A stretch of 64,000 bases of DNA, taken from assembly GCA_024195265.1 (NCBI GenBank), contig JAJLRJ010000006.1, positions 5,083,615-5,147,614 on the forward strand, read 5' to 3'. This stretch comes from Dendrophyllia cribrosa (lineage: Eukaryota > Cnidaria > Anthozoa > Scleractinia > Dendrophylliidae). A model generated the notes under the pieces. That model had not been told where the DNA came from. It saw only the letters and a list, made by a program, of their open reading frames with translations, and ran no database searches. Position 1 is the first letter of the stretch. The number at the start of each line of letters is the position of its first letter. The translations under genes were made by a program, and so were the position numbers. Positions 3,206 to 64,000 of the stretch are shown here, piece after piece.

Positions 3206-3286
3206 CTCAGTATTTGTTAAATGGCAACGATGTAGAGTCTACAATAGACGCCAGAATATAGAAGATAAAAACATCTCCCAGCGTAA

Positions 3287-34160: not shown

Positions 34161-34624
34161 TTAAAGTGCCTATCACCCCTAGAAAGTTATTCTCAGAATC
34201 AACTCTATGTACATTGAATAGTTGAATGGTAAAATATTTCTTGTTTTGAACGTGCCGTTAGTGAGTTATAGAGATTTGAATTTACAAAATGCTAATTAGA
34301 TGACGTCAACCCGGGACTTTGCCATTATTTCTAAGCCAATTTACAATGCGCAGTTTACAGCTTGAGGATAATTAATTTTGATAAACACTAAAAATTAACT
34401 GTGGATAGTCAATTGATAAGTAAAAAATATTTCTTGGAGGTGAAAACAAGTAGTTGTATAATAAATGATTCCCGGGTTGACGTCATCTAATTAGCATTTT
34501 GTAAATTCAAATCTCTATAACTCAATGACGCGACGTTCAAAACAAGAAATATTTCACCATTTAACTATTCAATGTACATAGAGTTGATTCTGAAAATTAC
34601 TTTCTAGGGGTGATAGGCACTTTA
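34161..34624. mobile_element. MITE with ~150-bp inverted repeats
   Basis: Ends ttaaagtgcctatcacccct and aggggtgataggcactttaa. The arms pair almost base for base over about 150 bp, through aatcaactctatgtacattg and gatgacgtcaacccggga, leaving a ~130-base centre. The arms are so alike that insertion seems recent. Confidence 0.93.
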
Positions 34625-35420
34625 ATACAGCGTGTCGCCTCTTAGTGGGTGGGAGCGATGAGAGGCGGCTGTATTCGCAGGCAAAGAGAAACAGGTCTGT
34701 AAACATTTGCCTTCTTGAATGAATTTGGCAGGCGGGTGAACTTAACTAAATACAGATAACGTAAATCCAGAGGGGCCCAGGTGCCACGAAGCTCTTTAGA
34801 ACCTCTCATTTTATTGGCCCTGGGTATCACGAAGCTCTATTCAGGGCTAGGGTCCATTCTTCTGTTGTTTGCTCTATTGTTTTCTCAGCCAATCCTGTGA
34901 GGCGTTATCAGAGCTTCGTACCCGCTGATCCAGAGTGAATATTTTTTAATTTACATGTGATTAAAAAAATTGTAGTCTGGCCCAGCGTCTTTTGTTTGTT
35001 TATTTTTAGTAGGAAGAGCGTTCAAGGTTTATTAAATTGCATTCTTATTGGATGTTAATTTACAGCTGTATCTCTCTATACATGCACTTAAGGTAGTGCC
35101 GAGCGCTGATCGAGTGTAGGAACTAAACGGTTGGAAATCAAGCCTAGGGTGCTTGACTCATCTTTGAATTAATCGGAAGTAAAGGTTTAAGGGGGAGAAT
35201 CGTAACTACAATGCCGTTGCTAAGTACACGGACCTGCGGGCTATAGAGGTCAGCGGATTCGATCGATCCAACATTGCAGCAAGAACGGCGACTGCATGGA
35301 GCAAGATGTATTATGCGCATGCGTCACTAGTGCCATTCGTAAACCGAGCAAAACACGTGGAAAGAGAAAATTTTCTAAAATGGGTACCGGAAACATTTTT
35401 GGGTGGATCTTTGAGTCTTA
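34625..35420. other. Intergenic sequence after RALGAPB
   Basis: No gene or clear repeat recognised. A short inverted pair (gaagctctttagaacctctc region and tcacgaagctctatt) is visible near 34790-34840. Confidence 0.4.
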
Positions 35421-39940: not shown

Positions 39941-41661
39941 AATAGTAGTAAACAGGTCCCAGTAGTATGTGTTTATTATTCGACATAGCATTCTACATTA
40001 CTACATTACATCACATTACAGTTGACTCTGGGAGTAGTGGTAATAGTAGTAGACAGGTCCCAGTAGTATGTGTTTATTATTCGACATAGCATTCTACATT
40101 ACTACATTACATCACATTACAGTTGACTCTGGGAGTAGTGGTAATAGTAGTAGACAGGTCCCAGTAGTATGTGTTTATTATTCGACATAGCATTCTACAT
40201 TACTACATTACATCACATTACAGTTGACTCTGGGAGTAGTGGTAATAGTAGTAGACAGGGTCCCAGTAGCATGTGTTTATTATTCGACATAGCATTCTAC
40301 ATTACTACATTACATCACATTACAGTTGACTCTGGGAGTAGTGGTAATAGTAGTAGACAGGTCCCAGTAGTATGTGTTTATTATTCGACATAGCATTCTA
40401 CATTACTACATTACATCACATTACAGTTGACTCTGGGAGTAGTGGTAATAGTAGTAGACAGGTCCCAGTAGTATGTGTTTATTATTCGACATAGCATTCT
40501 ACATTACTACATTACATCACATTACAGTTGACTCTGGGAGTAGTGGTAATAGTAGTAGACAGGTCCCAGTAGTATGTGTTTATTATTCGACATAGCATTC
40601 TACATTACTACACTACATCACATTACAGTTGACTCTGGGAGTAGTGGTAATAGTAGTAGACAGGTCCCAGTAGTATGTGTTTATTATTCGACATAGCATT
40701 CTACATTACTACATTACATCACATTACAGTTGACTCTGGGAGTAGTGGTAATAGTAGTAGACAGGTCCCAGTAGTATGTGTTTATTATTCGACATAGCAT
40801 TCTACATTACTACATTACATCACATTACAGTTGACTCTGGGAGTAGTGGTAATAGTAGTAGACAGGGTCCCAGTAGCATGTGTTTATTATTCGACATAGC
40901 ATTCTACATTACTACATTACATCACATTACAGTTGACTCTGGGAGTAGTGGTAATAGTAGTAGACAGGTCCCAGTAGTATGTGTTTATTATTCGACATAG
41001 CATTCTACATTACTACATTACATCACATTACAGTTGACTCTGGGAGTAGTGGTAATAGTAGTAGACAGGTCCCAGTAGTATGTGTTTATTATTCGACATA
41101 GCATTCTACATTACTACATTACATCACATTACAGTTGACTCTGGGAGTAGTGGTAATAGTAGTAGACAGGTCCCAGTAGTATGTGTTTATTATTCGACAT
41201 AGCATTCTACATTACTACATTACATCACATTACAGTTGACTCTGGGAGTAGTGTTAATAGAAGTAGACAGGTCCCAGTAGTATGTGTTTATTATTCGAAA
41301 TAGCATTCTACATTACTACATTACATCACATTACAGTTGACTCTGGGAGTAGTGGTAATAGTAGTAGACAGGGTCCCAGTAGCATGTGTTTATTATTCGA
41401 CATAGCATTCTACATTACTACATTACATCACATTACAGTTGACTCTGGGAGTAGTGGTAATAGTAGTAGACAGGTCCCAGTAGTATGTGTTTATTATTCG
41501 ACATAGCATTCTACATTACTACATTACATCACATTACAGTTGACTCTGGGAGTAGTGGTAATAGTAGTAGACAGGTCCCAGTAGTATGTGTTTATTATTC
41601 GACATAGCATTCTACATTACTACATTACATCACATTACAGTTGACTCTGGGAGTAGTGGTA
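39941..41661 (+). repeat. Satellite higher-order repeat, copy 2
   Basis: Carries the same sequence of monomer variants as copy 1, in the same order, 1,721 bases on. The two look almost identical, so the duplication is recent. No third copy follows: the agtaaacagg variant is absent at the expected place near 41669. Confidence 0.9.
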
Positions 41662-42866
41662 ATAGTAGTAGACAGGTCCCAGTAGTATGTGTTTATTATT
41701 CGACATAGCATTCTACATTACTACATTACATCACATTACAGTTGACTCTGGGAGTAGTGGTAATAGTAGTAGACAGGTCCCAGTAGTATGTGTTTATTAT
41801 TCGACATAGCATTCTACATTACTACATTACATCACATTACAGTTGACTCTGGGAGTAGTGGTAATAGTAGTAGACAGGTCCCAGTAGTATGTGTTTATTA
41901 TTCGACATAGCATTCTACATTACTACATTACATCACATTATAGTTGACTCTGGGAGTAGTGGTAATAGTAGTAGACAGGTCCCAGTAGTATGTGTTTATT
42001 ATTCGACATAGCATTCTACATTACTACATTACATCACATTACAGTTGACTCTGGGAGTAGTGGTAATAGTAGTAGACAGGGTCCCAGTAGTATGTGTTTA
42101 TTATTTGACACAACATTCTACATTACTACATTACATCACATCACATTACAGTTGACTCTGGGGGTAGTGGTAATAGTAGTAGACAGGATCCCAGTAGTAT
42201 GTGTTTATTATTCGACATAGCATTCTACATTACTACATTACATCACATCACATTACAGTTGACTCTGGGAGTAGTGGTAATAGTAGTAGACAGGGTCCCA
42301 GTAGTATGTGTTTATTATTTGACACAACATTCTACATTACTACATTACATCACATCACATTACAGTTGACTCTGGGGGTAGTGGTAATAGTAGTAGACAG
42401 GATCCCAGTAGTATGTGTTTATTATTCGACATAGCATTCTACATTACTACATTGCATCACATCACATTACAGTTGACTCTGGGAGTAGTGGTAATAGTAG
42501 TAGACAGGGTCCCAGTAGTATGTGTTTATTATTCGACATAGCATTCTACATTACTACATTACATCACATCACATTACAGTTGACTCTGGGAGTAGTGGTA
42601 ATAGTAGTAGACAGTGTCCCAGTAGTATGTGTTTATTATTCGACATAGCATTCTACATTACTACATTACATCACATCACATTACAGTTGACTCTGGGAGT
42701 AGTGGTAAGTACTATTTACAATATGAGTGGCGATGTTGTATCGGATTTACAATCTCGAGCCGAAGGCGGGAGATTGTGAATCCGATACAACATTGCCACG
42801 AATATTGTAAAGTACTTATGATATTTTACACTCCATTGTTATGCAAACATTTTCTATTGTTTCTGA

Positions 42867-43055: not shown

Positions 43056-43137
43056 TAGTGTTTTGTGGGCGAAAAATCGAGACAAATTTGAATATTCACT
43101 TCGGTATAGCTGCTAAGCCAGAGGAGTCGTAACAAGC

Positions 43138-43529
43138 ATGGCTCGTCAGTTTAGGAAACCAAAAAGTCCTAAAGAGGAGGAATCTTGGTTGAAAGAAACT
43201 GTTCCTCGTAATACTAGGCACAGCACTAAATGGAGTGTTAAAATATTTGAAGAGTGGCAGAATACTCGTAAAAATAAAGTAGCCAAAAACGAGTCGGTTG
43301 GATTTCCCTGTAATCTGGAAGAGATCCAAGATGTAACGGTTCCAATCACTGAACTGTCACCTGCATCTCTGAACTTTTGGCTGACCAAATTCGTTGGCGA
43401 AGTTGTAAAAAAGACTGGTGGTCGGTATCCTCCAAAGACACTTTACCAAATAGTTTGCGGCCTCAATAGGCGTATATTGAATATCAACGCGGAAAGAGGA
43501 GTGAATGTACTGAGCAATAGTGAACAACG
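43138..43529 (+). CDS. Crypton/DUF3504-type tyrosine-recombinase N-terminal exon (fragment)
   Basis: The ATG at 43138 opens 130 codons ending at a donor (gaacaacg/gtaagc). The product reads KWSVKIFEEWQNTRKN, then LSPASLNFWLTKFVGEV and GGRYPPKTLYQIVCGLNR. This is the recognisable N-terminal (core-binding, SAM-like) part of the DUF3504 proteins that derive from Crypton tyrosine recombinases (ZMYM2/QRICH1-like in vertebrates), which in cnidarians are mostly mobile copies. The catalytic domain (R..HxxR..Y) was not found downstream: satellite resumes about 450 bases later. So it is a first exon or a truncated copy, not a full gene. Confidence 0.65.
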
Positions 43530-43689
43530 GTAAGCCTGTTTGTGATATTTTGAAATTTGCATGGGTTGTACTGCACTATTAATTTCAATTTCAAGTAAAG
43601 TAAGATACATTTGTAACAATAAAGCAGTTCAGTCCAAAAATTAAATGTGGATTTTAATTGCGAGCTGTTCTGCATCGTTCATACAGAAA

Positions 43690-43974: not shown

Positions 43975-44525
43975 TAATAGTAGTAGACAGGATCCCAGTA
44001 GTGTGTGTTTATTATTCGACATAGCATTCTACATTACTACATTACATCACATTACAGTTGACTCTGGGAGTAGTGGTAATAGTAGTAGACGGTGTCTCAG
44101 TAGTGTGTGTTTATTATTCGACATAGCATTCTACATTACTACATTACATCACATTACAGTTGACTCTGGGAGTAGTGGTAATAGTAGTAGACGGTGTCTC
44201 AGTAGTGTGTGTTTATTATTCGACATAGCATTCTACATTACTACATTACATCACATCACATTACAGTTGACTCTGGGAGTAGTGGTAATAGTAATAGACA
44301 GGGTCCCAGTAGTGTGTGTTTATTATTCGACATAGCATTCTACATTACATCACATCACATTACAGTTGACTCTGGGAGTAGTGGTAATAGTAGTAGACAG
44401 GTCCCAGTAGCATGTGTTTATTATTCGACATAGCATTCTACATTACTACATTACATTACAGTTGACTCTGGGAGTAGTATTGATAGTAGTAGACGGTGTC
44501 TCAGTAGTGTGTGTTTATTGTGCCT
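43975..44525 (+). repeat. 101/107-bp satellite array, right block
   Basis: Five to six monomers of the same satellite with their own variants (gacggtgtctcagtagtgtg). Ends inside a monomer at tgtgtttattg. Confidence 0.95.
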
Positions 44526-52622: not shown

Positions 52623-52704
52623 TACCAAGGTTATAATATATAACCTACTAATAACCTAATATATAATAACCTAATATATAATCCTACCAAGGTTATAATA
52701 TATA
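52623..52704. repeat. AT-rich direct repeats at the edge of the viral element
   Basis: taccaaggttataatatata occurs at 52624 and again at 52685, with ataacctaatatataat units between. Just left of the hairpin. Confidence 0.7.
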
Positions 52705-52892
52705 GTAGTTAGTGACGTTGGTGATTCGGGATCACCCCCAAAGACCCCTATAGAGCCTTATTTTAATGATTGGCACCGCCACCCACTGGTCCTCCTGCCA
52801 GTCGGCCCAGTGGGTGGCGGTGCCAATCATTAAAATAAGGCTCCATAGGGGTCTTTGGGGGTGATCCCGAATGAACCAACGTCACCAACTAC
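52705..52892. repeat. 188-bp hairpin at the left edge of the viral element
   Basis: Two ~86-base arms (starting gtagttagtgacgttggtga; right arm starting ccagtgggtggcggtgcc) pair with a 2-nt bulge and a few mismatches, leaving a 16-base loop. The position, next to the first viral gene, fits a terminal structure, but a MITE is possible. Confidence 0.85.
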
Positions 52893-52902
52893 TCACTGTG
52901 AA

Positions 52903-52980
52903 TGCTGGTCCGGTACGAGATCACCGGAGGGCCCGGCACGAGATCACCGCTGTGAATTGCTGGTCCGGTACGAGATCACC
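52903..52980 (+). repeat. Direct repeats (tggtccggtacgagatcacc)
   Basis: tggtccggtacgagatcacc occurs at about 52906 and 52961, with a degenerate cccggcacgagatcaccgc in between, spaced 25-30 bases. Placed just upstream of the first viral gene; may be control sites. Confidence 0.8.
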
Positions 52981-53036
52981 ACCCCAGGGAGGTATTGACA
53001 ATTGAAGAAACCACATTACCTCATATAAACGTGACA

Positions 53037-53597
53037 ATGTCTCTCGGCAACGAAGCCATGACTGCCGTTGCGTTTTTGAAAATGCGTAGAATCCCTTTGA
53101 AAGAAGGTGATGACTTATACGCAAAGAACAAAGGGACGTTCGAATACAACCCTTGCAGACATTGCGGTTTAAACTTCACCCAAGGTCATTCTCTTGTTGA
53201 GCATCAAAAATACGCTTGCAAGAAGCTGAGAACAGAAAAACGACCGAAACAGATTTGCCCCGGCTGCAATCGAGCAGTTTCTAAAACAACGGTTTACAGC
53301 CACTTAAGAAATGGTTGCCCTCCCGTGAAAAACAACCCTCGAGTTTTTATACAGCGAGAGGTTGTTCGAGATGTTTTTGCAAACATTAGCCAGCATGAAT
53401 TGAATGTCTGGCTTGACGAGCAAGAACAAGAACCATTTAAAAACAAAAACCTGGAGGCTCTCAACCCCTTACCCAGGATCCGAGATTTGAGCTTTGTTTC
53501 TGATTTCATCGAAGGCAAGTCATCACTCGCAGCCTTTCAAACTGAGTTGAGCGGTTATCACCAATTGAAGAAACAATCACACTTCGTATACCAATGA
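53037..53597 (+). CDS. Viral two-zinc-finger (C2HC) protein
   Basis: 186 aa from ATG 53037 (chosen as the first ATG; no ATG lies upstream in frame). Two C2HC zinc fingers: C40-C43-H56-C61 and C74-C77-H89-C94. Rest is helical, with an acidic C-terminal half. Its stop overlaps the start of the recombinase gene (ATGA, 53594-53597), so the two are probably expressed together, for example by re-initiation. It lacks the TATATAYAC motif of the virion genes; upstream is catataaacg. A nucleic-acid-binding partner of the recombinase is plausible but not shown. Confidence 0.85.
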   Translation: MSLGNEAMTAVAFLKMRRIPLKEGDDLYAKNKGTFEYNPCRHCGLNFTQGHSLVEHQKYACKKLRTEKRPKQICPGCNRAVSKTTVYSHLRNGCPPVKNNPRVFIQREVVRDVFANISQHELNVWLDEQEQEPFKNKNLEALNPLPRIRDLSFVSDFIEGKSSLAAFQTELSGYHQLKKQSHFVYQ

Positions 53598-54706
53598 TGG
53601 CGACAACACAAGAGTTCATGAACTTCCTCAAATCGAGACAAACTGGCCTGAAACAAAAGAGTGCCGACTGGCTCTCAGCCAGACAAAATACAATTGGTGC
53701 CTCTGAAGTTTCTGCCTTGACAGGATCGTCGCCGTTCGAAACGCGAAGAAGCTTGCTCTTAAAGAAAATTCAGCCAACACATATGCTCAACAATGTGGCT
53801 TGTACCTGGGGCAATCTGTTTGAGCCGATTATACGCAAGTGTTTTGAGCAAAAACATTCTGTTTCTGTTTTTGGTCACAGCATTTCTCTTAATCTGTCAA
53901 GCGAGCATCCGCTTTATCGAAAGGTCACTTGTAGCCCAGACGGATACTTCATGAATACAGATAACACATTAAATCTGTTAGAATTCAAGTGTCCGTTCAA
54001 GCGAAAAATAGCGATGAACAGAATTCCTAGCTATTATCGCGATCAGATACAAACAGGGCTTGCTTTGAGTGGTGACATGGTCCCCAAAGGCTTGTTTGTT
54101 GACGGCTATTTCAGAATGTGTTCTTTAAAACAGCTTGAACCAAGTTTAGCTCACAATTCTTTTCTCAACGCCGGGAGAACATACAAAACAAAAAATAAAT
54201 CAACTCTTGCCTGGGGGGTCTGTTATCTATTTAGCAGACAAAACATTAAGATCAATCAAGTCGAACTTATTGATCTTGGAGCAACGCAAACAATTGCTTT
54301 GTTTGAACATGTCATGGGTTTAATTGCCACTAAAGAGATTTTAGTTTCATATGGCAAAATAAGAATGACGTTTACAGCCCGTGACGAAAATGCTGAATTT
54401 CTACGTTTAAACACCATGAAAGAAGCGTTCTCTAACCCGCGTAGAGAAGGGCCGAAACCTGTCGCAATGTTCGCTTGGAAATTGCTGGATCTCACTGAAA
54501 TTTGGGAGTTTAAAAAACCATATTTCTTGAGGGAAATCCAAAGGTCTGTTGAATGTTTTCATGAAAACCTATCAGAATTGAAAGGAAGAATCAAAAATTA
54601 TATTTACACCGAGGGCTCTGCCACAACTCCAAACACAGGCGATGACAAGGCCTTTTTGGAATCCTTTTTAATGAAGCAAGCGGCAAAGCTTACTCCAGAG
54701 TTCTGA
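53594..54706 (+). CDS. YqaJ / lambda-exonuclease-like viral recombinase
   Basis: 370 aa, complete. The PD-(D/E)XK core is present: GASEVSALTG (35-44), WGNLFEP (72-78), SPDG with the metal-binding Asp (114-117), LEFKCP with the E-x-K pair (129-134) and QIQTG (151-155). Family knowledge: such enzymes resect double-stranded DNA ends for single-strand-annealing recombination in phages and large eukaryotic DNA viruses. Here it would serve replication or concatemer resolution. It overlaps the zinc-finger gene by 4 nt and converges with the VLTF3-like gene with a 17-nt 3' overlap. Confidence 0.93.
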   Translation: MMATTQEFMNFLKSRQTGLKQKSADWLSARQNTIGASEVSALTGSSPFETRRSLLLKKIQPTHMLNNVACTWGNLFEPIIRKCFEQKHSVSVFGHSISLNLSSEHPLYRKVTCSPDGYFMNTDNTLNLLEFKCPFKRKIAMNRIPSYYRDQIQTGLALSGDMVPKGLFVDGYFRMCSLKQLEPSLAHNSFLNAGRTYKTKNKSTLAWGVCYLFSRQNIKINQVELIDLGATQTIALFEHVMGLIATKEILVSYGKIRMTFTARDENAEFLRLNTMKEAFSNPRREGPKPVAMFAWKLLDLTEIWEFKKPYFLREIQRSVECFHENLSELKGRIKNYIYTEGSATTPNTGDDKAFLESFLMKQAAKLTPEF

Positions 54707-55358
54707 ACGCATTATGCCATAAATATTCGTTTTTGATTATCATCGCATCAGACATCCATTGTTGTCTCAGGTAATTTATAATCACCCACTGCGGGGCTTC
54801 AAGCGGTGTTATTATGTTCAGGATTTTGTAGATCACAAACGTATAAGACATTCTCGGAAGCCGACCTTCTATTTGTTTGAAGACACGTTTCGTTTCATGG
54901 ATTTGATCGAGAGTCAACTGCACAGGCAGAATTTTGAGCTTTTTTATAAGTCGGTTCAGAGCATAACCAAATGAATAACTTCGTCCCGGTCGATGACTTT
55001 GTCTGTGGAAATTGTTTTGCTGCGTACATGCCTGACCATCATCATCGAGCACTTCCACACGGCCGCATCTTTTACAATAAAGTTCACAAGAATTGATTGA
55101 TTGCAAAAAGGGGTCACAACAGCCATAACAAGACAGGAGTCTTCGGGCCCGGCGTTCAATCTCCATGTCATTGTAATGTTTTTGAAGATATTGCTGCCCA
55201 ATCTCTGCCAACCCCACATCTTCGCATAACTGATAAAGTTTTTCCGGCAGGCACAAGCGGTGTATTTCTTTTGTGTAATCGCTGCCGTATAGCGAGCGAA
55301 GGATGGCAAATTTGTGCTCTTTGTCAAGTTGTCTGAGCCGTGCGCCAAACTCAGTCAT
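54690..55358 (-). CDS. VLTF3-like late transcription factor
   Basis: 222 aa, complete, minus strand. Residues C77, C80, C95, C98 form a zinc ribbon; after it comes YSFGYALNRLIKKL and a helical region ending in KILNIITPLEAPQWVIINYL. This matches the build of poxvirus late transcription factor 3 relatives found in large DNA viruses and polinton-like viruses (zinc ribbon, then Y/F-rich helices). Family knowledge: VLTF3 activates late genes, so it is a candidate reader of the TATATAYAC motif. Upstream of its own ATG is only taaatatagcc. The family call is from pattern memory, not a search. Confidence 0.75.
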   Translation of the reverse strand: MTEFGARLRQLDKEHKFAILRSLYGSDYTKEIHRLCLPEKLYQLCEDVGLAEIGQQYLQKHYNDMEIERRARRLLSCYGCCDPFLQSINSCELYCKRCGRVEVLDDDGQACTQQNNFHRQSHRPGRSYSFGYALNRLIKKLKILPVQLTLDQIHETKRVFKQIEGRLPRMSYTFVIYKILNIITPLEAPQWVIINYLRQQWMSDAMIIKNEYLWHNAFRTLE

Positions 55359-55479
55359 GGCTATATTTAGAGATTACAATTTTTCAATTGGAGGTTTCCC
55401 GTGACTTCCGGTGTTGTTGTGCTCGGGCCGTATTTAGAAAATTACGACTTTTCGAAGCTTCTCGGACATGCCGAAGCGC

Positions 55480-55630
55480 CCCACAAATGCCGAAGCACCC
55501 CAACTTTGTTGAAAAAAGTTTTTCTGGGGCGCTTCGGAATTTATTTTTTGAAAAAGTTTTTGTGGGGGGCTTTGGAATTTATTTTTTGAAAAAAGTTTTT
55601 GGGGGCGCTTCAGAATTTATTGGTGGGATT
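55480..55630. repeat. ~45-bp tandem repeat between two minus-strand viral genes
   Basis: ggcgcttcggaatttatttt followed by ttgaaaaaagtttttgggg occurs three times; to the left lie inverted partial units (gccgaagcgccccacaaatg and gccgaagcaccccaac). It fills most of the space between the VLTF3-like gene start and the next gene's end. Could be an origin or a transcription end. Confidence 0.85.
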
Positions 55631-55663
55631 TTTCTTTAGAAATGTAGAGATTGAAGCCAGAGT

Positions 55664-56350
55664 TTAATCTCTCAAATCGGATTTGGAGGCTGCGGTGAGA
55701 AGACTTATCTTTTTTTGAAACTCTTGTTTGACTTCCTTGCGAAGTTCGTTTTTGAGTTTCTCGAGGTCTGGCGATTGTGTTTGAGTGCCAACGTTTTTTT
55801 TAGCCTTAACACCATCCCTGATTGCAGCTTTGAGTTCGTGATATTTTTCCACCTCACGAGTAATTATGGTGAATTCTGCATCACTGATCCTCTTGTCTTC
55901 CAGAGCCTTTGAGACCAGTTCATAGACAGAGTTGCGTTTAGCCAGGGCCAGTGTGTAGATATTCTCGTGTTTGGTCACTTTTCGCTCCAATCGCTTGTTA
56001 GCAGCTGTAAAACCAACAGAGGACAGTCCACAGATGGTCGCGATGCCCGCAAGTGCTGGACCTGCAATTATTCCGAACCCAGTCAATGCGGTTGCAAGGG
56101 CCCCTGATGACAGCCCGACAGAAAGCGACCCCAGGCCAACAGCTGAGTAATGAACCAATGATTGGGTTCGTTTATATTTCTTTGCGACTTGTCTGTAATG
56201 CTCGGCTTCGTCAGACAGCTCTTTAAGCAAGTCAGAGATCTTTTTGAGTCGGAAGTCTTCTGCATTGATTTGAGCGATCTCACGCATGGGGTATAGCTGT
56301 TGTGTCTCGCTGTATTCGGGGGCTGATGGAAGCACATTGGCAGAACTCAT
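55664..56350 (-). CDS. Viral membrane protein with two hydrophobic helices (SLATT-like layout)
   Basis: 228 aa, minus strand. A charged helix (residues ~30-65) leads to two adjacent hydrophobic segments (about 70-90 and 92-118: VGLGSLSVGLSSGALATAL and GFGIIAGPALAGIATICGL), then a long charged helical tail. Similar proteins are common as hypothetical proteins in cnidarian genomes, where they probably derive from this virus group. The layout of paired TM helices plus charged helices resembles SLATT proteins. Preceded by atatatatacccc, so late class. Role in the virion membrane is inference. Confidence 0.8.
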   Translation of the reverse strand: MSSANVLPSAPEYSETQQLYPMREIAQINAEDFRLKKISDLLKELSDEAEHYRQVAKKYKRTQSLVHYSAVGLGSLSVGLSSGALATALTGFGIIAGPALAGIATICGLSSVGFTAANKRLERKVTKHENIYTLALAKRNSVYELVSKALEDKRISDAEFTIITREVEKYHELKAAIRDGVKAKKNVGTQTQSPDLEKLKNELRKEVKQEFQKKISLLTAASKSDLRD

Positions 56351-56370
56351 GACGTGGGGTATATATATGA
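56351..56370 (-). promoter_or_regulatory. Late-type motif before the paired-TM gene
   Basis: On the minus strand, atatatatacccc lies 5 bases before the ATG. Confidence 0.7.
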
Positions 56371-56374
56371 TTTT

Positions 56375-57046
56375 TTAATTTAACTCAACTTCAAATTCCA
56401 AAGGCTCGCCATTGAAGTTGAAGAGGTCATTGTTCTCATCTCTCACTGACAGCGTGATAGAGTTAACAAATTCACCAGACGAGACGTCACGCAAGACGTT
56501 CTGTTGTGTTGTCTCGTAATGAATCTTCTCAAAAGCTTTTCCACGAATGTCGAAGCGCGCCAAAACCGTCGAAGGCTTTCCATTGAGGAGGTTTTGTTCT
56601 TTATTAACGAGATCACAGTGGATGAAGTAAGTGCTTGGTGCCCTTAAACGCTGGACGAAAGTTATTAGCAACAATGTAGGCCTTATGCCAAGCAACTCTG
56701 CCAGATTATTACTTAACTTCACACTGCCGCTGTTATTTGTAATGACCATGGCCCCATATGGCCTGTTTGTTTCAATTGTTAGATTTAAACTTCTGTCAAA
56801 GTCTTTTAGGCTTTCAAAGTCTTTTGTTAAACTCTCAATAGTGTAATGGCCTTGAAGTAAGGTTACCTCACGTGATGAACCATTAGGTGGAGGGTTTGCT
56901 GATGAAATCTTTGCTTCTTCTTTCAAGTTGAACCACGAGTTGAAAATTGAGCAAGAAACAAGACGGATATAACTCGGTTTCGGCAGTGGGTGGTCGAAGT
57001 AAATCGTGCGAGGGTTCGAAGACGTGACGATTGTTAACACAACCAT
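56375..57046 (-). CDS. Minor capsid (penton-like, single jelly roll) protein
   Basis: 223 aa from the ATG at 57046, chosen because it directly follows the tatatatacacc motif; an ATG 45 nt upstream would read into the promoter. The C-terminal half (FIHCDLVNKEQNLL..VLARFDIRG..., SGEFVNSITLSVRDENN) has the pattern of polinton/PLV penton proteins: an 'IHCDL' strand, a variable loop, and a final 'I.L.VRDE' strand pair. In virions of this kind it fills the 5-fold vertices beside the major capsid protein. Divergently paired with the gene at 57094. Confidence 0.8.
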   Translation of the reverse strand: MVVLTIVTSSNPRTIYFDHPLPKPSYIRLVSCSIFNSWFNLKEEAKISSANPPPNGSSREVTLLQGHYTIESLTKDFESLKDFDRSLNLTIETNRPYGAMVITNNSGSVKLSNNLAELLGIRPTLLLITFVQRLRAPSTYFIHCDLVNKEQNLLNGKPSTVLARFDIRGKAFEKIHYETTQQNVLRDVSSGEFVNSITLSVRDENNDLFNFNGEPLEFEVELN

Positions 57047-57093
57047 GATGGTGTATATATAAGGACATTTTATAATTATAATTATATACAATC
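57047..57093. promoter_or_regulatory. Bidirectional late promoter (47 bp)
   Basis: Between two divergent ATGs lie only 47 bases, with a tatatatacacc motif facing the minus-strand penton gene and attatatacaatc facing the plus-strand gene. 5' leaders must be very short. Confidence 0.7.
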
Positions 57094-57909
57094 ATGTTTG
57101 GCAGACGGCCTGGTGGATTTAACCCTAATTCAAATCTTGGCATCTCCATCGGCGGCCACAATTATGGACCCCCACCTCCTTTTAATTCAAACCTAAACGT
57201 CAATAGCCATCCTCCATATAAGCCACCGCCCCCAAATCCTGAAATTGCTTGGTTGAATTCGCCGGAGGCAGCAAAGCTCTCTGCCGCGGCCAAGGCCAAG
57301 GCAATTTCAGACTTCAAAAAGCGTTTCCCTCGCGCCGATATGTCACACTTTGAAGTGCAAGTAGAGTATGGTGCTGACCACAAAACAGCCACAGGAGAAG
57401 TGCTTTATAAAAAGGCCCCTGGCTCCTGGGGGCTAATCACAGAAATGCCCCACAAAGATTGGACTGGCGCCGAAAGAGACGCTCTTGGCCTCCATTATGA
57501 CGGGGGTTTCCCTTATCAGTTATCGTTGGGGCAAAAAATGTCATCAATCCCGGCTATTGCTTTCGACACAACAATAGACAAAGACATGATGATTGGCGCA
57601 ATCTTGAATGACAAAGAGCAAAGGATTTACGTCACGCCAACTGAGTATTTCACAACGAAATACAGAAATATCTTCAGGGACACACAGATATCCTTCTCAA
57701 CCGCCAAATATGGCCGAAAGTGGATGGGTGGCCCGCATATGAGCTTTTGGCCACAACAACTCTCCTTCGCCCTGTGGTGTGCAACAACCGGCTGTGGAAT
57801 CTCGCGTGACATTCTATTCGATAAGAACTCCAGTTTATCCCTAACCACACAGCTCCGGTCGTTTTACCGGTTTCACGTTTATTTCACAACAAGGCGAATA
57901 CTCTACTAG
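57094..57909 (+). CDS. Viral virion protein, N-terminal half (before in-frame TAG)
   Basis: 271 codons to a TAG (57907-57909) followed at once, in the same frame, by ATG of the next ORF. Begins with a Gly/Asn/Pro-rich leader (to ~residue 60), then a folded region with a conserved-looking WATTGCGISRDILFD-type block (here CATTGCGISRD) and ends FYRFHVYFTTRRILY. Late motif present upstream. No characterised family recognised. The second ORF has no promoter of its own, which suggests a single protein in relatives; the TAG may be a mutation or a readthrough codon. Confidence 0.75.
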   Translation: MFGRRPGGFNPNSNLGISIGGHNYGPPPPFNSNLNVNSHPPYKPPPPNPEIAWLNSPEAAKLSAAAKAKAISDFKKRFPRADMSHFEVQVEYGADHKTATGEVLYKKAPGSWGLITEMPHKDWTGAERDALGLHYDGGFPYQLSLGQKMSSIPAIAFDTTIDKDMMIGAILNDKEQRIYVTPTEYFTTKYRNIFRDTQISFSTAKYGRKWMGGPHMSFWPQQLSFALWCATTGCGISRDILFDKNSSLSLTTQLRSFYRFHVYFTTRRILY

Positions 57910-58947
57910 ATGGGTGGGGAACAAAGCGTAAGTGCTTTGCCAGACGACCCCCCATTTAACCAGAAAGACAACAAGTACAACATCGACGCGTACAAGAAGC
58001 TTTGCATCGAGTTCGGTATCGACCCCAGTTCTGACTTCCGGTTCACACATGGTAAGAACCACGGTCTAGGGAATGTCTACATTAGGGCTTATGGAGAGGG
58101 CCCCATCTCTACCGATTACACTTATCCAGACTCTGATCTAGCTCTGTTCGATGATGAGCGCGTCACTGACAGAAAAGACCCCAACTTTAAAGCCAATGGA
58201 ATAACTTACGTCCGCAACGATCAAGGGGCTGACACCCAGTTCGAGCACTTTGTGCCAAATTACGCACAGGGGCTAACACAGCCAGGGCTCGCGCGTATGA
58301 ACCAATCAATCGAGGCCTTTGTGTACTGCATTCTTGGTTCACAACCCAAAACCCGCAACAGCATCATTGGAAGAGGAGGCAGGGCCTTCGAAACGCAGAG
58401 AGTATTTCTCACCCATCTAGAGGAGGCCATAATCCTGAACGACATCGCAACAAGCGTACAGCGATACCAGCTTGCCATCCAAGCAAAGAAAGTTCGCCTG
58501 GACTTTGCGACAGCACCCGGAAGCTGGCTCATGCCATCGCGCATGATTATCAACACAGAGAGCGTGATCGGGTATAACAACAATCTGCAGGAGGCAACAC
58601 AAGGAATGAAGCTGGGCGTGAACAGCGGTGTTAATCTGGGCACAAAAAAAGCCTTCCTTCGCCCCATGGACGGTGGACCAACAAAGATTAATCCACCAAA
58701 CAGCCACCCATCAAACCCGATACATACACAGGCCACACAGGCACAGGGCATTGCGCCCAAACCGAAGGCCACACCACAACCCACACCCACAGCACCCACA
58801 CCCACACCCACAGCACCCACACCCACAGCACCCACACCCACACCCACACCCACACCCGAACCGCAGCCCGACCCGCATCACGTAAACAAGGCACTCATTG
58901 CTGTGGGGGCGATTGCTTTGGGAGGGCTTTTCGTTTGGTTGAGATAA
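57910..58947 (+). CDS. Viral virion protein, C-terminal half with Pro-Thr repeat and membrane tail
   Basis: 345 codons directly after the TAG. About 240 residues of folded sequence (YKKLCIEFGIDP, HGLGNVYIRAYGEGP, RGGRAFETQRVFLTHLEE), then a run of (TP)n/(APTP)n at residues ~285-320 coded by acccacacccacagc repeats, then one C-terminal transmembrane helix (KALIAVGAIALGGLFVWL). The stalk-plus-anchor layout suggests a virion membrane or vertex protein. No TATATAYAC motif upstream, unlike its neighbours. Confidence 0.75.
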   Translation: MGGEQSVSALPDDPPFNQKDNKYNIDAYKKLCIEFGIDPSSDFRFTHGKNHGLGNVYIRAYGEGPISTDYTYPDSDLALFDDERVTDRKDPNFKANGITYVRNDQGADTQFEHFVPNYAQGLTQPGLARMNQSIEAFVYCILGSQPKTRNSIIGRGGRAFETQRVFLTHLEEAIILNDIATSVQRYQLAIQAKKVRLDFATAPGSWLMPSRMIINTESVIGYNNNLQEATQGMKLGVNSGVNLGTKKAFLRPMDGGPTKINPPNSHPSNPIHTQATQAQGIAPKPKATPQPTPTAPTPTPTAPTPTAPTPTPTPTPEPQPDPHHVNKALIAVGAIALGGLFVWLR

Positions 58948-58951
58948 GTGT

Positions 58952-60241
58952 TCAAGACTTCGAACGCTTGGTGATCCTTTCAACAAGGAAGGCCACCACG
59001 GCAAGGATGAGCAGCCAGGCGTGTTCTCCCAGAAAGGAGATGACCGACCCAGCCGTTTTGAAGATGAAGCTAACAATTGTGCCAATGAGGCCAGGCAGTG
59101 CGCTGGCTGCCTTTTTGGCAAGCTCTTTAAGCCCATTTCCAATAGCCTTAGTGGCCTTTGCCAGACCGTTCAAGGTGGCGAGTACAACAGCACTGATGGT
59201 GATGCCAGCTGCCAGAACAATGGCTTGCAGGGTCCACCCGTATTTCTTGAAGATTTCTCTGACCCTCTCACGCAAAGAGAGGCCCCTTTCGCGCACCTCG
59301 ATTTCTGTGGTTACCCTTGCCAGCTCTTCTTCACGTTCGGCAACCCTGTCTTCCGCAGCTGCTCTTTCGGAGGGGGAAGTGTTCTCATCCTCAATCACCC
59401 GCTTGTCTTCAGCGTTCTGCCGCTCGAGCTCTTCTTTGGCCCCCTTAAGTTCGTCGAGGGGTTTCACAGCATCCTGTTTCCCCCTGAGTTCCCCCAGGCG
59501 CCTTTCCAGTCCCCGTTTGTCAAGCAGATCTTTGTCGATTTCTTTTTGAAGCTTGTCTGCTTGTTTGGCAGCTTTTTGTGCCTTTTCCAGTTCTTCCCGT
59601 TTGGCTTGATGTTCAGCCTCAAGAGCCCCCTTTTCATTTTTCAGTCTTTGTATTGCCTCCTTGTCCAGCGGGCCGTGTGCATCTTCCATCTCTTGGATCT
59701 GGTCGGCAATTTCTCTGATTCTCTTTCTGATTGCATCCATGTCGAGGCGAAGTTTTTGTGTATCGGCAGCAGCTGTTTCTGCTTGTCGTTGTTCTTTTAG
59801 TTTTGCGTCCAGAGCTTTTTGATTTGCTTGGAGGGCAACATTTGTTTCTTTGAAGGCTTTGTCCATAGTCTTCCCGAGACCTTTTTTGATCTCGTTTGTA
59901 AGAGAGGTGTTGAAAGTCTTCGAATCGTCACCGCGCGATTTTGTCACAAGCGGATACCATTTTTCTTTCTTCCTCATGCTCACCTCGGTAATGGCGCCGT
60001 CGTTTGTTGCCCGCCACCTGAGCTTGACTATCGATTTATCTGCATCTGGGTATTCATCTTTAACATCTCTCCAAATCATGCCTTCCGTTAATGAAATGCC
60101 ATAGCCGTCCGGGCCCACGTTGCCGTCCGGGACCGTGAAAGAGGTTTCTTCACTGCTGGCACCTTGTCGCTCTGGGGGGAGCCTGGTTCTCGTTTTCATT
60201 TCTATCTGTTCACCAACAGGGGCGGAAGTAGAGATCGGCAT
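58952..60241 (-). CDS. Coiled-coil protein with C-terminal membrane region
   Basis: 429 aa, complete. A small N-terminal domain (~1-110), a long coiled coil (~125-320: repeated heptads such as RIREIADQIQEMED and ELERQNAEDKRVIED), then an amphipathic to hydrophobic region (IVLAAGITISAVVLATL, LIGTIVSFIFKTAGSVISFL, WLLILAVVAFLV), i.e. two or three membrane segments. Its 3' end nearly touches that of the preceding plus-strand gene (4 nt gap). There is no late motif before its ATG, but the small gene at 60490 lies 12 nt upstream, so both may share one transcript. Homologues occur among cnidarian hypothetical proteins; function unknown, perhaps membrane-active. Confidence 0.85.
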   Translation of the reverse strand: MPISTSAPVGEQIEMKTRTRLPPERQGASSEETSFTVPDGNVGPDGYGISLTEGMIWRDVKDEYPDADKSIVKLRWRATNDGAITEVSMRKKEKWYPLVTKSRGDDSKTFNTSLTNEIKKGLGKTMDKAFKETNVALQANQKALDAKLKEQRQAETAAADTQKLRLDMDAIRKRIREIADQIQEMEDAHGPLDKEAIQRLKNEKGALEAEHQAKREELEKAQKAAKQADKLQKEIDKDLLDKRGLERRLGELRGKQDAVKPLDELKGAKEELERQNAEDKRVIEDENTSPSERAAAEDRVAEREEELARVTTEIEVRERGLSLRERVREIFKKYGWTLQAIVLAAGITISAVVLATLNGLAKATKAIGNGLKELAKKAASALPGLIGTIVSFIFKTAGSVISFLGEHAWLLILAVVAFLVERITKRSKS

Positions 60242-60253
60242 GTTTTCATGGCG

Positions 60254-60490
60254 TTAGCGGAATTCTTCCTGTTCCTTTTTTGACATTTCATTCCAAACAT
60301 CTTTGTACTGGCCACCGCCATAGTCATCGTCACCAGGGTTTGGGGTGGATGTATCAACTGATTTGAGCCATTCCTCCCGGTCTTCTTCTTTTAGTCCATT
60401 CCACCAGTTTTCGAAATCAGCATCCTCGCCATCCTCTGGAGGAGGAATGAGAGGAGTTTTCTCAGTTGCCTCATCTGGATCGACTTCCAT
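60254..60490 (-). CDS. Small acidic viral protein
   Basis: 78 aa, about a third Asp/Glu, with Trp-rich patches (FENWWNGLKEEDREEWL and DVWNEMSKKEQEEF). It starts directly at an AT-rich motif (tatatttatatatc) in the promoter region shared with the major capsid gene. Function unknown; a scaffold-like role is a guess. Confidence 0.75.
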   Translation of the reverse strand: MEVDPDEATEKTPLIPPPEDGEDADFENWWNGLKEEDREEWLKSVDTSTPNPGDDDYGGGQYKDVWNEMSKKEQEEFR

Positions 60491-60530
60491 GATATATAAA
60501 TATAAATTTTAAAAACACAAATATATACCC
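60491..60530. promoter_or_regulatory. Bidirectional late promoter (40 bp) before the major capsid gene
   Basis: aaatatataccc stands 0-3 bases before the capsid ATG; gatatataaatata faces the acidic-protein gene on the other strand. Confidence 0.75.
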
Positions 60531-61781
60531 ATGGCTGTGCAGCCGAACCAACTCCCATCACACAGTGAAAAGACACTGGGCGCCATGAAGGCAGAGCGAA
60601 CCGTCAAGCGCATCACATTCAACCCAACTGCGGCCAACCCCGGCGAGACACTTTATGTCTCAGTCCCCAAGCTGGGCGAGCACGATGTTATTGTGTCCGG
60701 CTCGCTGGCCCTGGTATTCAACATCAGCCTGGCCGGTGGGCATGCAAACAATTATCTCGTGCAGAATGTTTCTCGGGCCCTGGTGGACAGGCTCGTTGTA
60801 AAGTTTGCAGCCACCACTCTCCAGGACACGGTTGGGTACGACATCTACAAGATCTTCGAAGACTTATTCAGATCAACCGATGAGCGGGACAACATGCTTA
60901 TGGATGGCATCCAGAGTGTCGATTTGTGCAAGATCCGGACTGGTGCTGGAGACAAAAAGACCTCAGGTGTGGATGCAGAGAACAAGCATGAGACAATTCA
61001 CAAGAATAAGTATCACATCAAGCTGGATCACCAAATCTTGACTGACCACGGAGTCCTGTACCCTCAAGCACTGTATAACGATCTGGTCTTCGAACTAACC
61101 CTCGCCCCCGCAAACCAAGTTGTCCGAGGCTCAGACACAAGCAAGCTCGTGTACAAGCTGGAAAACATCCAGCTGGAGTATGAGACGATCAGAAGTAAGG
61201 TGCTGGCCGATGAGGCAACAAGCACTTACACCAGTGGCAAGGAGTTCGCTTATGACCTGGTAATGCGAGATCGGGTGCATCCCTTCTCAAAAAGCGGTGA
61301 CACTCGGCTGAATCTTCGGGTTAACCCACAGCGCCGGTCTCTCAAGGGCATCCTGCTGCTGTTTATCAACCCTTACACTGCTGGCGCTCGGGACTCTGAA
61401 AACTATTTCAATCCCGACATCACCAAAGTGAAGGTCACAGTCAACGGCGTTCCAAACAGGCTTTACAATGAGGGTATAAGCGGCACGGACATGTGGAGAG
61501 AGATAACCAGGCATTTCACACCGCAAACGGACGGCAGGCCCAACATGAACTTGACCAAATACCTCACAGGTAACAAGTTTGGCCTCTGGATCGACCTGCG
61601 GACCATGGCTGACACATCTCTGCACGGAAGCGGCAAACGGCTCGTCAACACACAAGATGGCGTGCAGCTCGAGATCGAACGAACCGGCTCGGGGTCGGGG
61701 AATGCACTCTGCCACATCTTCACCCTCTCAGACTCACAGATGAACATAATGGACAGACAGTTGGAGTCTGTAGACTACTGA
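60531..61781 (+). CDS. Major capsid protein (double jelly roll)
   Basis: 416 aa, complete and open. The sequence has the build of polinton/PLV/adintovirus major capsid proteins: an N-terminal strand set (GETLYVSVPKLGEHDVIVSGS), HIKLDHQILTDHGVLYPQALYN at the end of the first roll, a linker YETIRSKVLADEAT, then a second roll with RRSLKGILLLFINPYTAGARDS and LWIDLRTMADTSLHGSGKRL. It ends QMNIMDRQLESVDY. Trimers would form the icosahedral shell. Intact despite breaks in nearby genes. It begins at an exemplary late motif. GC-rich codons differ from the AT-rich host flank. Confidence 0.93.
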   Translation: MAVQPNQLPSHSEKTLGAMKAERTVKRITFNPTAANPGETLYVSVPKLGEHDVIVSGSLALVFNISLAGGHANNYLVQNVSRALVDRLVVKFAATTLQDTVGYDIYKIFEDLFRSTDERDNMLMDGIQSVDLCKIRTGAGDKKTSGVDAENKHETIHKNKYHIKLDHQILTDHGVLYPQALYNDLVFELTLAPANQVVRGSDTSKLVYKLENIQLEYETIRSKVLADEATSTYTSGKEFAYDLVMRDRVHPFSKSGDTRLNLRVNPQRRSLKGILLLFINPYTAGARDSENYFNPDITKVKVTVNGVPNRLYNEGISGTDMWREITRHFTPQTDGRPNMNLTKYLTGNKFGLWIDLRTMADTSLHGSGKRLVNTQDGVQLEIERTGSGSGNALCHIFTLSDSQMNIMDRQLESVDY

Positions 61782-61784
61782 ACG

Positions 61785-61796
61785 CATTTATATACC
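61785..61796 (+). promoter_or_regulatory. Late-type motif before the ATPase gene
   Basis: atttatatacc touches the ATG at 61797. Confidence 0.7.
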
Positions 61797-62541
61797 ATGG
61801 CCACAAACAACAAGATCAACTTCATTGCCAAGCCGGCTCCCCTGCCATCCACCAGACCATTATCACACGCACAAATACAAAGACTTCTGGCAAAGGCCCC
61901 ACCACCGCCAGTTTTCGAACCGACTAATATAGGTGTTGGGTATGGACCCAAGAAAGCTGCCATTCAATGCACTAATCGTGGGCCCCACTAACTCTGGCAA
62001 GACACAGTATCTTCTCTCCCAACTGGTGGAGGCCTTCCGGGGTTGTTTTGATTACATCGTTTTATTCTGCCCCACATTTGTTAAGAACAAGACATACGAT
62101 GGCTTCGTGGATCGCGATCCACACATCTTTGTGATTGTCTGCCAACAGCACGAAATCGAAGACTGGTTGAGGCTGGCGAGCTTCTTTTTTGCATGCACCA
62201 ACACTTTATTCATTCTCGATGACTGCGCCGCCTCCAAAGATGTCAAAGGCCGCACGGGCCAGCTGGTCAATCTGGGGTTTAGCGCAAGGCATGACGGCAT
62301 ATCCGTGTGGGTCTTGACCCAGCAGATCACCAGCATTGCCAAACCATATCGTGACAACATTGCAGCGATTGTTCTCTTTTACACACCCTCCAGCAAGACA
62401 ACGAAAGCCATTTTCGAAGATTATGCCGGCGAGCTCTCCCACGAGGAGTACAAAGAGTTTATCGCAAGGCTCAAATCCCGCAAGTTCTCCCACCTGGTTT
62501 TCTCTCTTAGGCACCCGTATGGAATTGAGTACAAGATTTAA
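61797..62541 (+). CDS. Packaging ATPase (A32/FtsK-HerA type), frame change near the N-terminus
   Basis: The motif-adjacent ATG at 61797 opens a Pro-rich leader, which the frame abandons near 61955. The rest lies in the +1 frame, open to 62541, with its own ATG at 61942. Counted from that ATG: Walker A GPTNSGKT (14-21), Walker B with LFILDD, and sensor VLTQQ. The class pumps DNA into capsids. The leader in one frame and the ATPase in another imply a one-base indel, a programmed +1 shift at about ccc-aag-aaa-g, or translation from the inner ATG with the leader ORF as a remnant. The ATPase core itself looks intact. Confidence 0.88.
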
Positions 62542-62542
62542 A

Positions 62543-62558
62543 ACACACATATATACCA
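62543..62558 (+). promoter_or_regulatory. Late-type motif before the small helical gene
   Basis: cacatatatacc touches ATG 62559. Confidence 0.7.
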
Positions 62559-62796
62559 TGAATGCGCCAACAAGTCTACCAAACTGTGTGTGCTTTCACA
62601 GCTTTTGGATGAATTGCACAAACACACCCTTGAGGTGCAAAACAAAATTATCAAAGCCGCTGGTGAGGAAGATCTGCGCCTCATGCTTCTCAACAGATAT
62701 CCCTTGCGGTTGACTTCTATGCCAGACACCACGGCGGGGCTTATAAGAGAGTTTGAAACCCTTTTGCCAGACATCAAGAGAATTATTGAAAAATAA
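62559..62796 (+). pseudogene. Small helical viral protein, frame-shifted near its start
   Basis: The late motif (cacatatatacc) points at ATG 62559, but the frame that opens there does not hold the helical protein. That protein (LSQLLDELHKHTLEVQNKI to IKRIIEK, stop 62794-62796) runs in the next frame from about 62585, so a single-base change lies between 62575 and 62590. About 75 aa in all. No family recognised; helices and charge pattern suggest a small DNA- or protein-binding factor. Confidence 0.65.
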
Positions 62797-62799
62797 AAA

Positions 62800-62819
62800 A
62801 CACATATGTATACCCCCTG
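62800..62819 (+). promoter_or_regulatory. Late-type motif before the interrupted gene
   Basis: catatgtatacccc lies 4-5 bases before ATG 62820. Confidence 0.65.
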
Positions 62820-63428
62820 ATGGCAGAAGCAGCTGAAGAGCAGGCCGTTTTTGACGAAGTAATGCAGATGCTGGAGGCCACCCCTGGTGCCGAACCTCCC
62901 ACAGGTCTAATTGGTGACAATGGCATTCCTGCCAAACGTGAGAAGCTTGCAATCCTTGTTTCAACTGGCAAGGCCAAAGAAGCTATCGGAATGCAGCTCA
63001 CACACGATCGTGTTGCGCGGCTGTCAGACAAGGATGTTGAGAAGTACTGCAAAAGGTAGGAGGCCTACGTCGGCAGCAAGACGACCGAATCCCTAATTGA
63101 TTAAACTATCACGCTCGCGACCAAAGGCATTGGCCTGGTGGCCACGATTGATGATGCCAATGAGTTGCAGCAAGAAATCAAGAACAACTACATCATCAAC
63201 CATGAGCTGGCAAATCTTGCTGGGGATCTTGCCCTGCGATGCGGACGATGGCTGGCGCTTGCCATTGCTGCTCTCATCACAACAAAACACATCAAGTTTG
63301 AACGAGATCCTGACAAGGCTGAACCCCCACCCCAACCCACACATCCAACCAGGGACAGTGAAGGCTATCCACTTGAGGGATTTGATGAAGTTGGGTTGGG
63401 ACCTGTGGCGACCTCGCAGAAACCTTGA
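62820..63428 (+). pseudogene. Viral protein interrupted by two in-frame stops
   Basis: The ATG at 62820 follows the late motif catatgtatacccc. An 79-codon reading (MAEAAEEQAVFDEV..., KREKLAILVSTGKAKEAIG) ends at TAG 63057-63059, and after 14 more codons a TAA (63102-63104); the same frame then stays open to 63428 with conserved-looking sequence (KGIGLVATIDDANELQQEI, ELANLAGDLALRCGRWLALA). The whole would be ~200 aa, with one hydrophobic segment (LALAIAALITTK). A protein of this build occurs in cnidarian genomes as a hypothetical protein. Function unknown. Confidence 0.75.
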
Positions 63429-63483
63429 AGAAACCTGACAGCAACCTGTCAGCAACCTGGCACATCTTGTAAAAAATAAAATT

Positions 63484-63497
63484 CACATATATACAGG
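63484..63497 (+). promoter_or_regulatory. Late-type motif before the small membrane-protein gene
   Basis: cacatatatacagg touches ATG 63498. Confidence 0.7.
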
Positions 63498-63974
63498 ATG
63501 GCCACACCACTCGAGATTATCCCTGAAGAAACTCCAACACCAACTCCAACACCTGCACGGGTTACCTCTGAGGCACCGAAAACAAAGCCTGCAACAGAAA
63601 AGAACCCTGGCCGCGTTGCTTCTGGCAAAAGGCTAGCAGAACGCAACCGCATGGCCCGGGAAGCAAAGAAAAAGGCCGAAGAACAAAATCCTGCACCATC
63701 AACAAGTGGGGCAACAAGTGACACAACGGGGGGTGCAACAAGTGACACACCAAGTGACAGCAACAGCAACTCAATCATTTACATTCTGGGGGTTGCAGGG
63801 TTGGTTGTATCTGCTGCTGGTGTTTATTACCAACGCGAAGCCATAATGCAAAGGCTTGGACGAAAATCAAACACCCCACCACCAGCCACACCAGAAGCCA
63901 CACCAGAAGCCACACCCACTGCAACACCCCCATCTCGAATTCCGGTAAGACAAGGAATAAAAAATATGGGATAA
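63498..63974 (+). CDS. Small viral membrane protein with Pro/Thr-rich ends
   Basis: 158 aa, complete. Thr-Pro repeats near the N-terminus, a basic-charged stretch (GKRLAERNRMAREAKKKAEE), one transmembrane helix (~93-112: IIYILGVAGLVVSAAGVYY), then a Pro/Ala/Thr-rich tail ending RQGIKNMG. Late motif (cacatatatacagg) lies just before the ATG. A single-pass virion membrane protein is likely; family unknown. Confidence 0.8.
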   Translation: MATPLEIIPEETPTPTPTPARVTSEAPKTKPATEKNPGRVASGKRLAERNRMAREAKKKAEEQNPAPSTSGATSDTTGGATSDTPSDSNSNSIIYILGVAGLVVSAAGVYYQREAIMQRLGRKSNTPPPATPEATPEATPTATPPSRIPVRQGIKNMG

Positions 63975-63996
63975 AAAAATCATATATATACTGACC

Positions 63997-64000
63997 ATGG
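63997..64000 (+). CDS. Start of the next viral gene (cut by the window edge)
   Basis: catatatatactgacc followed by ATGG gives the same late motif and spacing as other virion genes. Only the start codon and one base are seen. Confidence 0.6.

Follow-up and report, generated by a model that had tools for sequence, protein, structure and literature searches.

Many eukaryotic DNA viruses have been proposed to descend from Polintons, and how the inverted ends of a protein-primed genome could become hairpin ends is an open question. We will describe here an element which is very probably an integrated Maverick/Polinton-type virus and which has many copies in the genome of an animal, probably a cnidarian. 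It was found in a window of 64,000 nucleotides (C19:5083615–5147614) of an assembly of 627,238,274 bases. The left two thirds of this virus-like element run from position 52704 to the end of the window. The rest lies in the stretch L009, which begins at C19:5147615, directly to the right; its base 6342 is the right terminus, so that the whole element measures 17,639 bases (17.6 kb).

A cnidarian Polinton with a capsid like those of giant viruses is already a known kind. The Polinton capsid of Hydra magnipapillata has PBCV-1 VP54 as its sole significant match, and P-3_NV of Nematostella vectensis has been linked with PgVV (Krupovic 2014, PMC4028283). Cnidarian capsids are the only metazoan ones which fall outside the main Maverick-Polinton (Maverick/adintovirus) cluster (Bellas 2023). 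Our element resembles cnidarian Polintons by its polymerase, apparently of the OTU-PolB type, its rve integrase, its A32 ATPase and its PBCV-1-like capsid fold. As far as the descriptions go, it is set apart from them by a target-site duplication of 5 bp instead of 6 bp, by its terminal palindromes, by the presence of YqaJ and VLTF3-like genes and by the protease, which we did not find here. The terminal motif of Polinton/Maverick elements is given as (AG)3 or (AGT)2, and the (AGT)2 termini of our element are those reported in vertebrate Mavericks (PMC8097293).

The combination of an OTU-bearing PolB with an rve integrase is shared with adintoviruses and meldviruses (PMC11071296), and the OTU-PolB arrangement has been stated for this virus group (PMC11071308; PMC11071296). 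Meld23486 joins an adintovirus-like PolB and integrase to pox-like virion genes (Buck 2024, PMC11071296); adintovirus hexons are mutually recognisable by BLASTP (PMC11071296). Mriyaviruses (PMC11253617) also have a capsid, a packaging ATPase, VLTF3 (a candidate in our case) and a PDDEXK nuclease (here YqaJ, on the class assumed below). However, they are 35–45 kb long and conserve VLTF2 and RuvC, neither of which has a Pfam match among the 18 open reading frames (ORFs) of the element which were scanned; integrase and OTU-PolB set our element apart from them. In reef corals no classifiable repeat is more abundant than Maverick, which makes up 1.41–6.74% of three genomes by RepeatMasker (PMC11370458). 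A VLTF3-like gene is found isolated among metazoan genes in Exaiptasia pallida (PMC5294986); it is likewise cnidarian, but no Polinton link is described for it in that source. Hairpins are reported in PMC12747079, but they belong to giant viruses, not to Polintons. Our searches were limited to the open-licence literature: they gave no description of terminal palindromes or hairpins in Polintons and no report of YqaJ or VLTF3-like genes in such elements. No report of a 5-bp duplication was met either, and no search was aimed at it. As far as these searches reach, terminal palindromes are undescribed for such elements.

The right terminus is the left terminus inverted, with 95.7% identity across 211 columns, and nine other copies measure 16,821–18,620 bases. 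A first look at the host assembly gave 1,547 candidates for the major capsid protein (MCP), 1,386 for YqaJ, 1,254 for the VLTF3-like protein and 4,141 for PolB; these totals are candidates, not proven copies, and only the best of them were scored (100 capsids, 111 YqaJ, 150 VLTF3-like and 37 PolB). The host animal appears to carry more than a thousand copies of the element. The scored capsid matches are spread over 14 contigs, and the flanks differ between the sampled copies. The arrangement of the genes is constant. Among 80 YqaJ and 100 capsid places, all 31 YqaJ–MCP pairs found within 15 kb have both genes on the same strand, with a spacing of 6.3–8.0 kb and no other arrangement; none of the 100 scored capsids is paired with any of the remaining 49 YqaJ places. 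MCP–PolB pairs were selected by proximity, and in all 17 of them the two genes lie on opposite strands 4.6–6.3 kb apart. The VLTF3-like places which were compared by eye coincide with YqaJ ends in other copies.

A first-pass annotation of the window had seen in it an endogenous polinton-like virus with a YqaJ and VLTF3 module. The kind of element, the linkage of its genes and its spread are borne out (the capsid has 1,957 homologues at E ≤ 1e-3), and the VLTF3 part is still unproven. The same annotation noted the lack of a polymerase and an integrase. This absence is rejected as an effect of the window edge: both ORFs lie past it in L009, as the annotation itself had allowed for, and the extension to the right which it proposed led to the second terminus. 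The different mode of replication that it suggested has lost its basis in a missing polymerase and survives only in the terminal palindromes, which the annotation did not mention.

The fold model of the capsid has a mean confidence (predicted local distance difference test, pLDDT) of 55, and the 22 top ranks of the PDB comparison are all capsid chains of double-jelly-roll viruses, with two half matches. By model and ranks it has a double-jelly-roll fold, as the first-pass annotation had anticipated. In 28 pairs from 8 copies the ratio of non-synonymous to synonymous substitutions (dN/dS) has a mean of 0.113 and a range of 0.084–0.145 (mean dN 0.023, dS 0.207); one of these copies has a stop codon, which was skipped. 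It is shown in this way that purifying selection acts on the capsid.

The integrase ORF also matches the IS481 model (E 7e-14, below the cut-off) and has a triad D80, D145 and E180, with 34 residues between the last two. A Pfam scan of this ORF gave no chromodomain match, by which its absence is not proven. The long ORF at the right end is called from motif order alone: DNQC (196), HYC (290), DLE (372), NLKGYD (598), YLETD (741), DANNLY (841), KLMNNSVFG (1000), YTDTDS (1100) and KMY (1168), several of these patterns occurring also by chance elsewhere in the same protein. We take DNQC and HYC as an OTU-like domain and the other motifs as exonuclease and polymerase, and on this ground call the ORF PolB. 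The order of the motifs shows a putative polymerase of the OTU-plus-PolB type. Residues 542–581 of this ORF form an endonuclease VII-like zinc stretch (E 1.1e-4, below the cut-off, when the full ORF is compared with Pfam; 23.7 bits, just above it, when the N-terminal half is scanned alone).

The closest solved relative of the YqaJ protein is mimivirus R354 (E 0.001); we take this nuclease to belong to the PDDEXK class. The VLTF3 family (PF04947) has its best profile match in another copy, L054, with 12.0 bits versus a cut-off of 25 (E 0.17), and the profile gave no match with the ORF of the window copy. Sequence comparison with the PDB gave no useful match for the capsid profile, the VLTF3-like, PolB or integrase proteins. 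Nothing useful came from scans of viral contigs with MCP, an MCP alignment, ATPase and PolB, nor from genome contigs, phage records and Rfam. The 271-aa and 345-aa ORFs, split by a TAG, may be one gene or two.

Two promoter-like boxes separate early-type genes (YqaJ, VLTF3-like and PolB) from late-type ones. The early-type box CAATTGAARAA has 5 sites versus 0.015 expected by base shuffling, and a single one in the 52.6 kb of host sequence to its left; the late-type box TATRTATAC has 8 sites versus 0.49 expected, and 2 in the host part. The boxes were noticed on inspection of the sequence and had not been predicted, and for words so rich in A and T the shuffling of single bases is a lenient control. 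The first early-type box falls at the called start of the zinc-finger ORF; others stand 32 nt before the YqaJ and before the VLTF3-like ORF, and PolB has one before its called start and one just inside it. The core CAATTGAA is also present at 56778 inside an ORF and five times in the host part. In the other copies CAATTGAA is found just inside the palindrome: of the 45 left ends which offer 200 nt or more of inner sequence 41 have it, and of the 11 right ends 10. TATRTATAC or near-forms of it precede the starts of the membrane, penton, capsid, integrase and several small ORFs. The near-form just upstream of the capsid is conserved in all 8 copies read; the ATPase has one about 135 nt before its GTG. 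Neither box is present in the 45 nt examined before the coiled-coil ORF, the 345-aa ORF, the ORF at 63153 and the ATPase at its GTG. The apparent box of the 271-aa ORF is that of the penton read in reverse.

A peculiarity of the element is that it ends in long palindromes. The left one, folded as DNA, has an energy of -103.9 kcal/mol (z -24.6). In the window copy it is kept, and the right palindrome stops at its centre; the target duplication of this copy is unreadable for that reason. We have compared stretches around the left end in 60 other copies, those which rank highest in the YqaJ list, and around the right end in 20 of these. With the window and L009 counted in, the end rule finds a palindrome with AGYAGY-type ends in 49 left stretches out of 61 and in 11 right stretches out of 21, the misses including stretches which perhaps do not reach the end of the element. 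Among the 20 copies with both sides read, 7 have it at both ends. Further palindromes were recognised by eye only, in left ends L1 (with a central loss), L7 and L14 and in right ends R14 and R17. The palindromes found by the end rule measure 122–195 nt. Most of the sampled ends with a palindrome have AGTAGT/ACTACT, some have AGCAGC. The possibility that the left palindrome is a chance head-to-head insertion, which the half palindrome at the right end of the window copy might suggest, was rejected, since other copies carry a palindrome at both ends. The target-site duplication is exactly 5 bp, and lies exactly at the outer edge of the palindrome, in all 9 copies whose two outer edges were set by hand. 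The same 7 bases flank left ends L39 and L50, which may be duplicates of a single insertion. Long palindromes are common in this region, but those of AGYAGY type are tied to the edge of the element: none of the palindromes in the host part has element-type ends, and the 6 tiles of 2 kb inside the element hold none.

The nature of these palindromes has to be weighed. They could be hairpin telomeres as in parvoviruses and poxviruses, with hairpin transfer instead of protein priming, which we find quite unlikely. Palindromes at both ends speak for it, as do their arms, which are 93–97% complementary in 12 palindromes despite only 47–69% identity of the outer arms between subfamilies. The centre is asymmetric, and its two orientations (54:5, one unclassified) are seen in three of the four centre classes; copies 5 and 7 even have opposite orientations at their two ends. 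However, a PolB with an OTU-type N-terminus would favour protein priming, and no match to HUH or parvovirus Rep is found among the 18 ORFs scanned. The flop is also rare, and the arms mostly do not follow the centre. Inverted arms fit better in 0/16 comparisons for L3, 6/18 for L5, 1/18 for R7, 1/18 for L22 and 0/11 for L49. This is a weak test with few markers in the arms, and its control is noisy: flips are better inverted on average in 3/22 (class B) and 2/11 (class C). A flip/flop of the whole palindrome was rejected: of 59 classified ends 5 have an inverted centre, mostly without inversion of the arms. Since the arms of the centre-inverted cases mostly lie as in the others, hairpin transfer of the whole palindrome is unsupported. 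A role outside replication is possible, but we regard it as doubtful: the palindromes would be paired binding sites of the integrase or a by-product, their symmetry being kept in the host by gene conversion through cruciforms. Inversion of the centre only is the expected outcome of arm recombination inside a chromosome, and other long palindromes are present in the host part of the window; however, the palindromes are retained by many copies across four centre classes, and in 9 of 9 copies the duplication coincides exactly with their outer edge.

Two other explanations concern the element as a whole. It could be a dead family of transposons which only its integrase has spread, the capsid genes being relics. 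The several thousand PolB candidates suggest much chromosomal copying and decay, and 9 of the 37 scored PolB copies have stops. Against this, 93 of 100 capsids and 102 of 111 YqaJ have no stop, although these best-scoring copies are a biased set in which 28 of 37 PolB are also stop-free, and the low dN/dS of the capsid argues in the same direction; we consider a dead family very improbable. Contamination, or a misassembly joining a viral contig to animal DNA, had been named in the first-pass annotation as what might undo its reading, and the GC content does climb within the block, from 0.41 (54–56 kb) to 0.52 (58–60 kb). Its probability is practically negligible: the first-look candidates in the same genome (over 1,000), the spread of the scored matches over contigs, the different flanks and the 5-bp duplications refute it.

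We thus return to an integrated virus of the Maverick/Polinton kind, with hairpin-forming ends. Several points weigh against this view or parts of it. Polintons are described with 6-bp target-site duplications and the duplication is 5 bp here; the element is therefore filed as a variant of the supergroup and not as a canonical Polinton. The PolB ORF has no polymerase match in Pfam, NCBIfam or PHROGs, and the Pfam scan of the 18 ORFs gave no protease, of which a divergent form may still be present. The VLTF3 identity is unproven, with a profile match below threshold and no homologue of the ORF in the protein database (none of 128 candidates). As for the ends, every sampled copy is among those most like the YqaJ of the window, among the 20 copies with both sides read at least 9 gave no right palindrome, and palindromes of at least 100 nt are also common outside the element, in 8 of 26 tiles of 2 kb from the host sequence of the window. 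The arm data, weak test as they are, would speak against simple hairpin transfer.

A possible life cycle can be drawn from these features. The genes with early boxes (zinc finger, YqaJ, VLTF3-like and PolB) would be expressed first, and PolB would replicate the linear genome from a protein primer. The VLTF3-like factor would then switch on the genes with late boxes, the capsid module and the integrase. The ATPase would pack the particles, and the integrase would insert new copies, from which the 5-bp duplication would result. At each end of a displaced single strand a hairpin of at most about 90 bp could form, which would supply a duplex end without a meeting of the two ends; YqaJ may process the ends or join copies through strand annealing. 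As a whole, this cycle of early and late genes, protein-primed copying, packaging and integration is tentative, and we would rather doubt than assert it. A wider proposal is more speculative and, taken in full, unlikely: the lineage would combine a replication and integration module of Polintons (OTU-PolB and rve integrase) with a giant-virus-like module for expression and recombination (a VLTF3-type factor with its late box, and YqaJ). Its usual linear inverted termini would have been replaced by terminal hairpins, with protein-primed copying restarting from self-folded ends, and it would be a living intermediate between Polintons and the hairpin-ended nucleocytoplasmic viruses.

Table 1. Features of the element, in window positions unless L009 is given (aa, amino acids; cut-off, that of the profile).
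Feature	Position	Strand	Remarks
Left terminal palindrome	52704..52893		5'-AGTAGT end; two arms of ~94 nt; asymmetric centre near 52798
Three direct repeats of a 23-nt unit	52903..52980		just inside palindrome; stretch varies between copies
Zinc-finger-like ORF, 200 aa	52995..53597	+	zf-C2H2 match below cut-off; called start TTG
Early-type box sites	52999; 53562; 55390; two at PolB start
YqaJ / lambda-exonuclease-type recombinase, 370 aa	53594..54706	+	PF09588, 68.6 bits
VLTF3-like candidate late transcription factor, 222 aa	54690..55358	-	tail-to-tail with YqaJ, ends overlapping
Three tandem 38-nt repeats	55505..55621		between VLTF3-like and membrane genes
Membrane protein candidate, 228 aa	55664..56350	-	hydrophobic central stretch
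Penton (minor capsid) candidate	56375..57091	-	late-type box upstream of inner start
271-aa ORF	57094..57909	+	ends in TAG directly before 345-aa ORF
345-aa ORF	57910..58947	+	Pro/Thr-rich stretch; hydrophobic C-terminus
429-aa ORF	58952..60241	-	coiled-coil-like by eye; hydrophobic C-terminus
Major capsid protein, predicted double jelly roll, 416 aa	60531..61781	+	fold model, PDB comparison
A32-type packaging ATPase, 202 aa from GTG	61933..62541	+	PF04665, 53.9 bits, above cut-off
Four small late-block ORFs	62542..63974	+	last one (63498-63974) with hydrophobic stretch
Element portion at and beyond window edge	63983..64000, then L009	(+)	small ORFs at L009 280 and 890
Integrase ORF	within L009 915-2336	+	PF00665, 28.0 bits, E 2.7e-6, below cut-off 32.6
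OTU-plus-PolB-type ORF (putative), 1,262 aa without stop	L009 2333-6121	-	motif order

The rest of the window has features of its own. Its host part contains ten long palindromes similar to miniature inverted-repeat transposable elements, among them 34161–34625, 3055–3221 and 19332–19476, with ends unrelated to those of the element. A satellite array at 36377–42708 has about 61 copies of a 101-nt unit, which a higher order of 405 nt fits too, and a smaller array is found nearby (43975–44519). Between them there is an ORF with a QRICH1 domain (43117–43533, E 5.5e-10), which perhaps belongs to another mobile element. GIY-YIG is matched weakly by the ORF at 16907–17986 (E 0.014). A RALGAPB-type gene has exons at 10132–11685 and 31403–32035 (PF20412, E 1e-37, plus a Rap_GAP match below threshold), and exons with MACPF and PAN domains lie at 1954–5568. 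The RALGAPB and MACPF exons and the 14 contigs with capsid matches would point to an animal as host, perhaps a stony coral. The right end of the element is adjoined by long ORFs (L009:7214–9998) which we take to be similar to reverse transcriptases; Pfam gave no match for L009:7214–9442.

An OTU-PolB, terminal palindromes, a recombinase, two promoter classes and many open reading frames are thus brought together in an element which is apparently present in more than 1,000 copies. So many copies are natural replicates, in which the function of the termini, selection and early and late expression may be tested from public data. If the host is a coral, the element also supplies gene content for the DNA which is counted as 'Maverick' in coral genomes.

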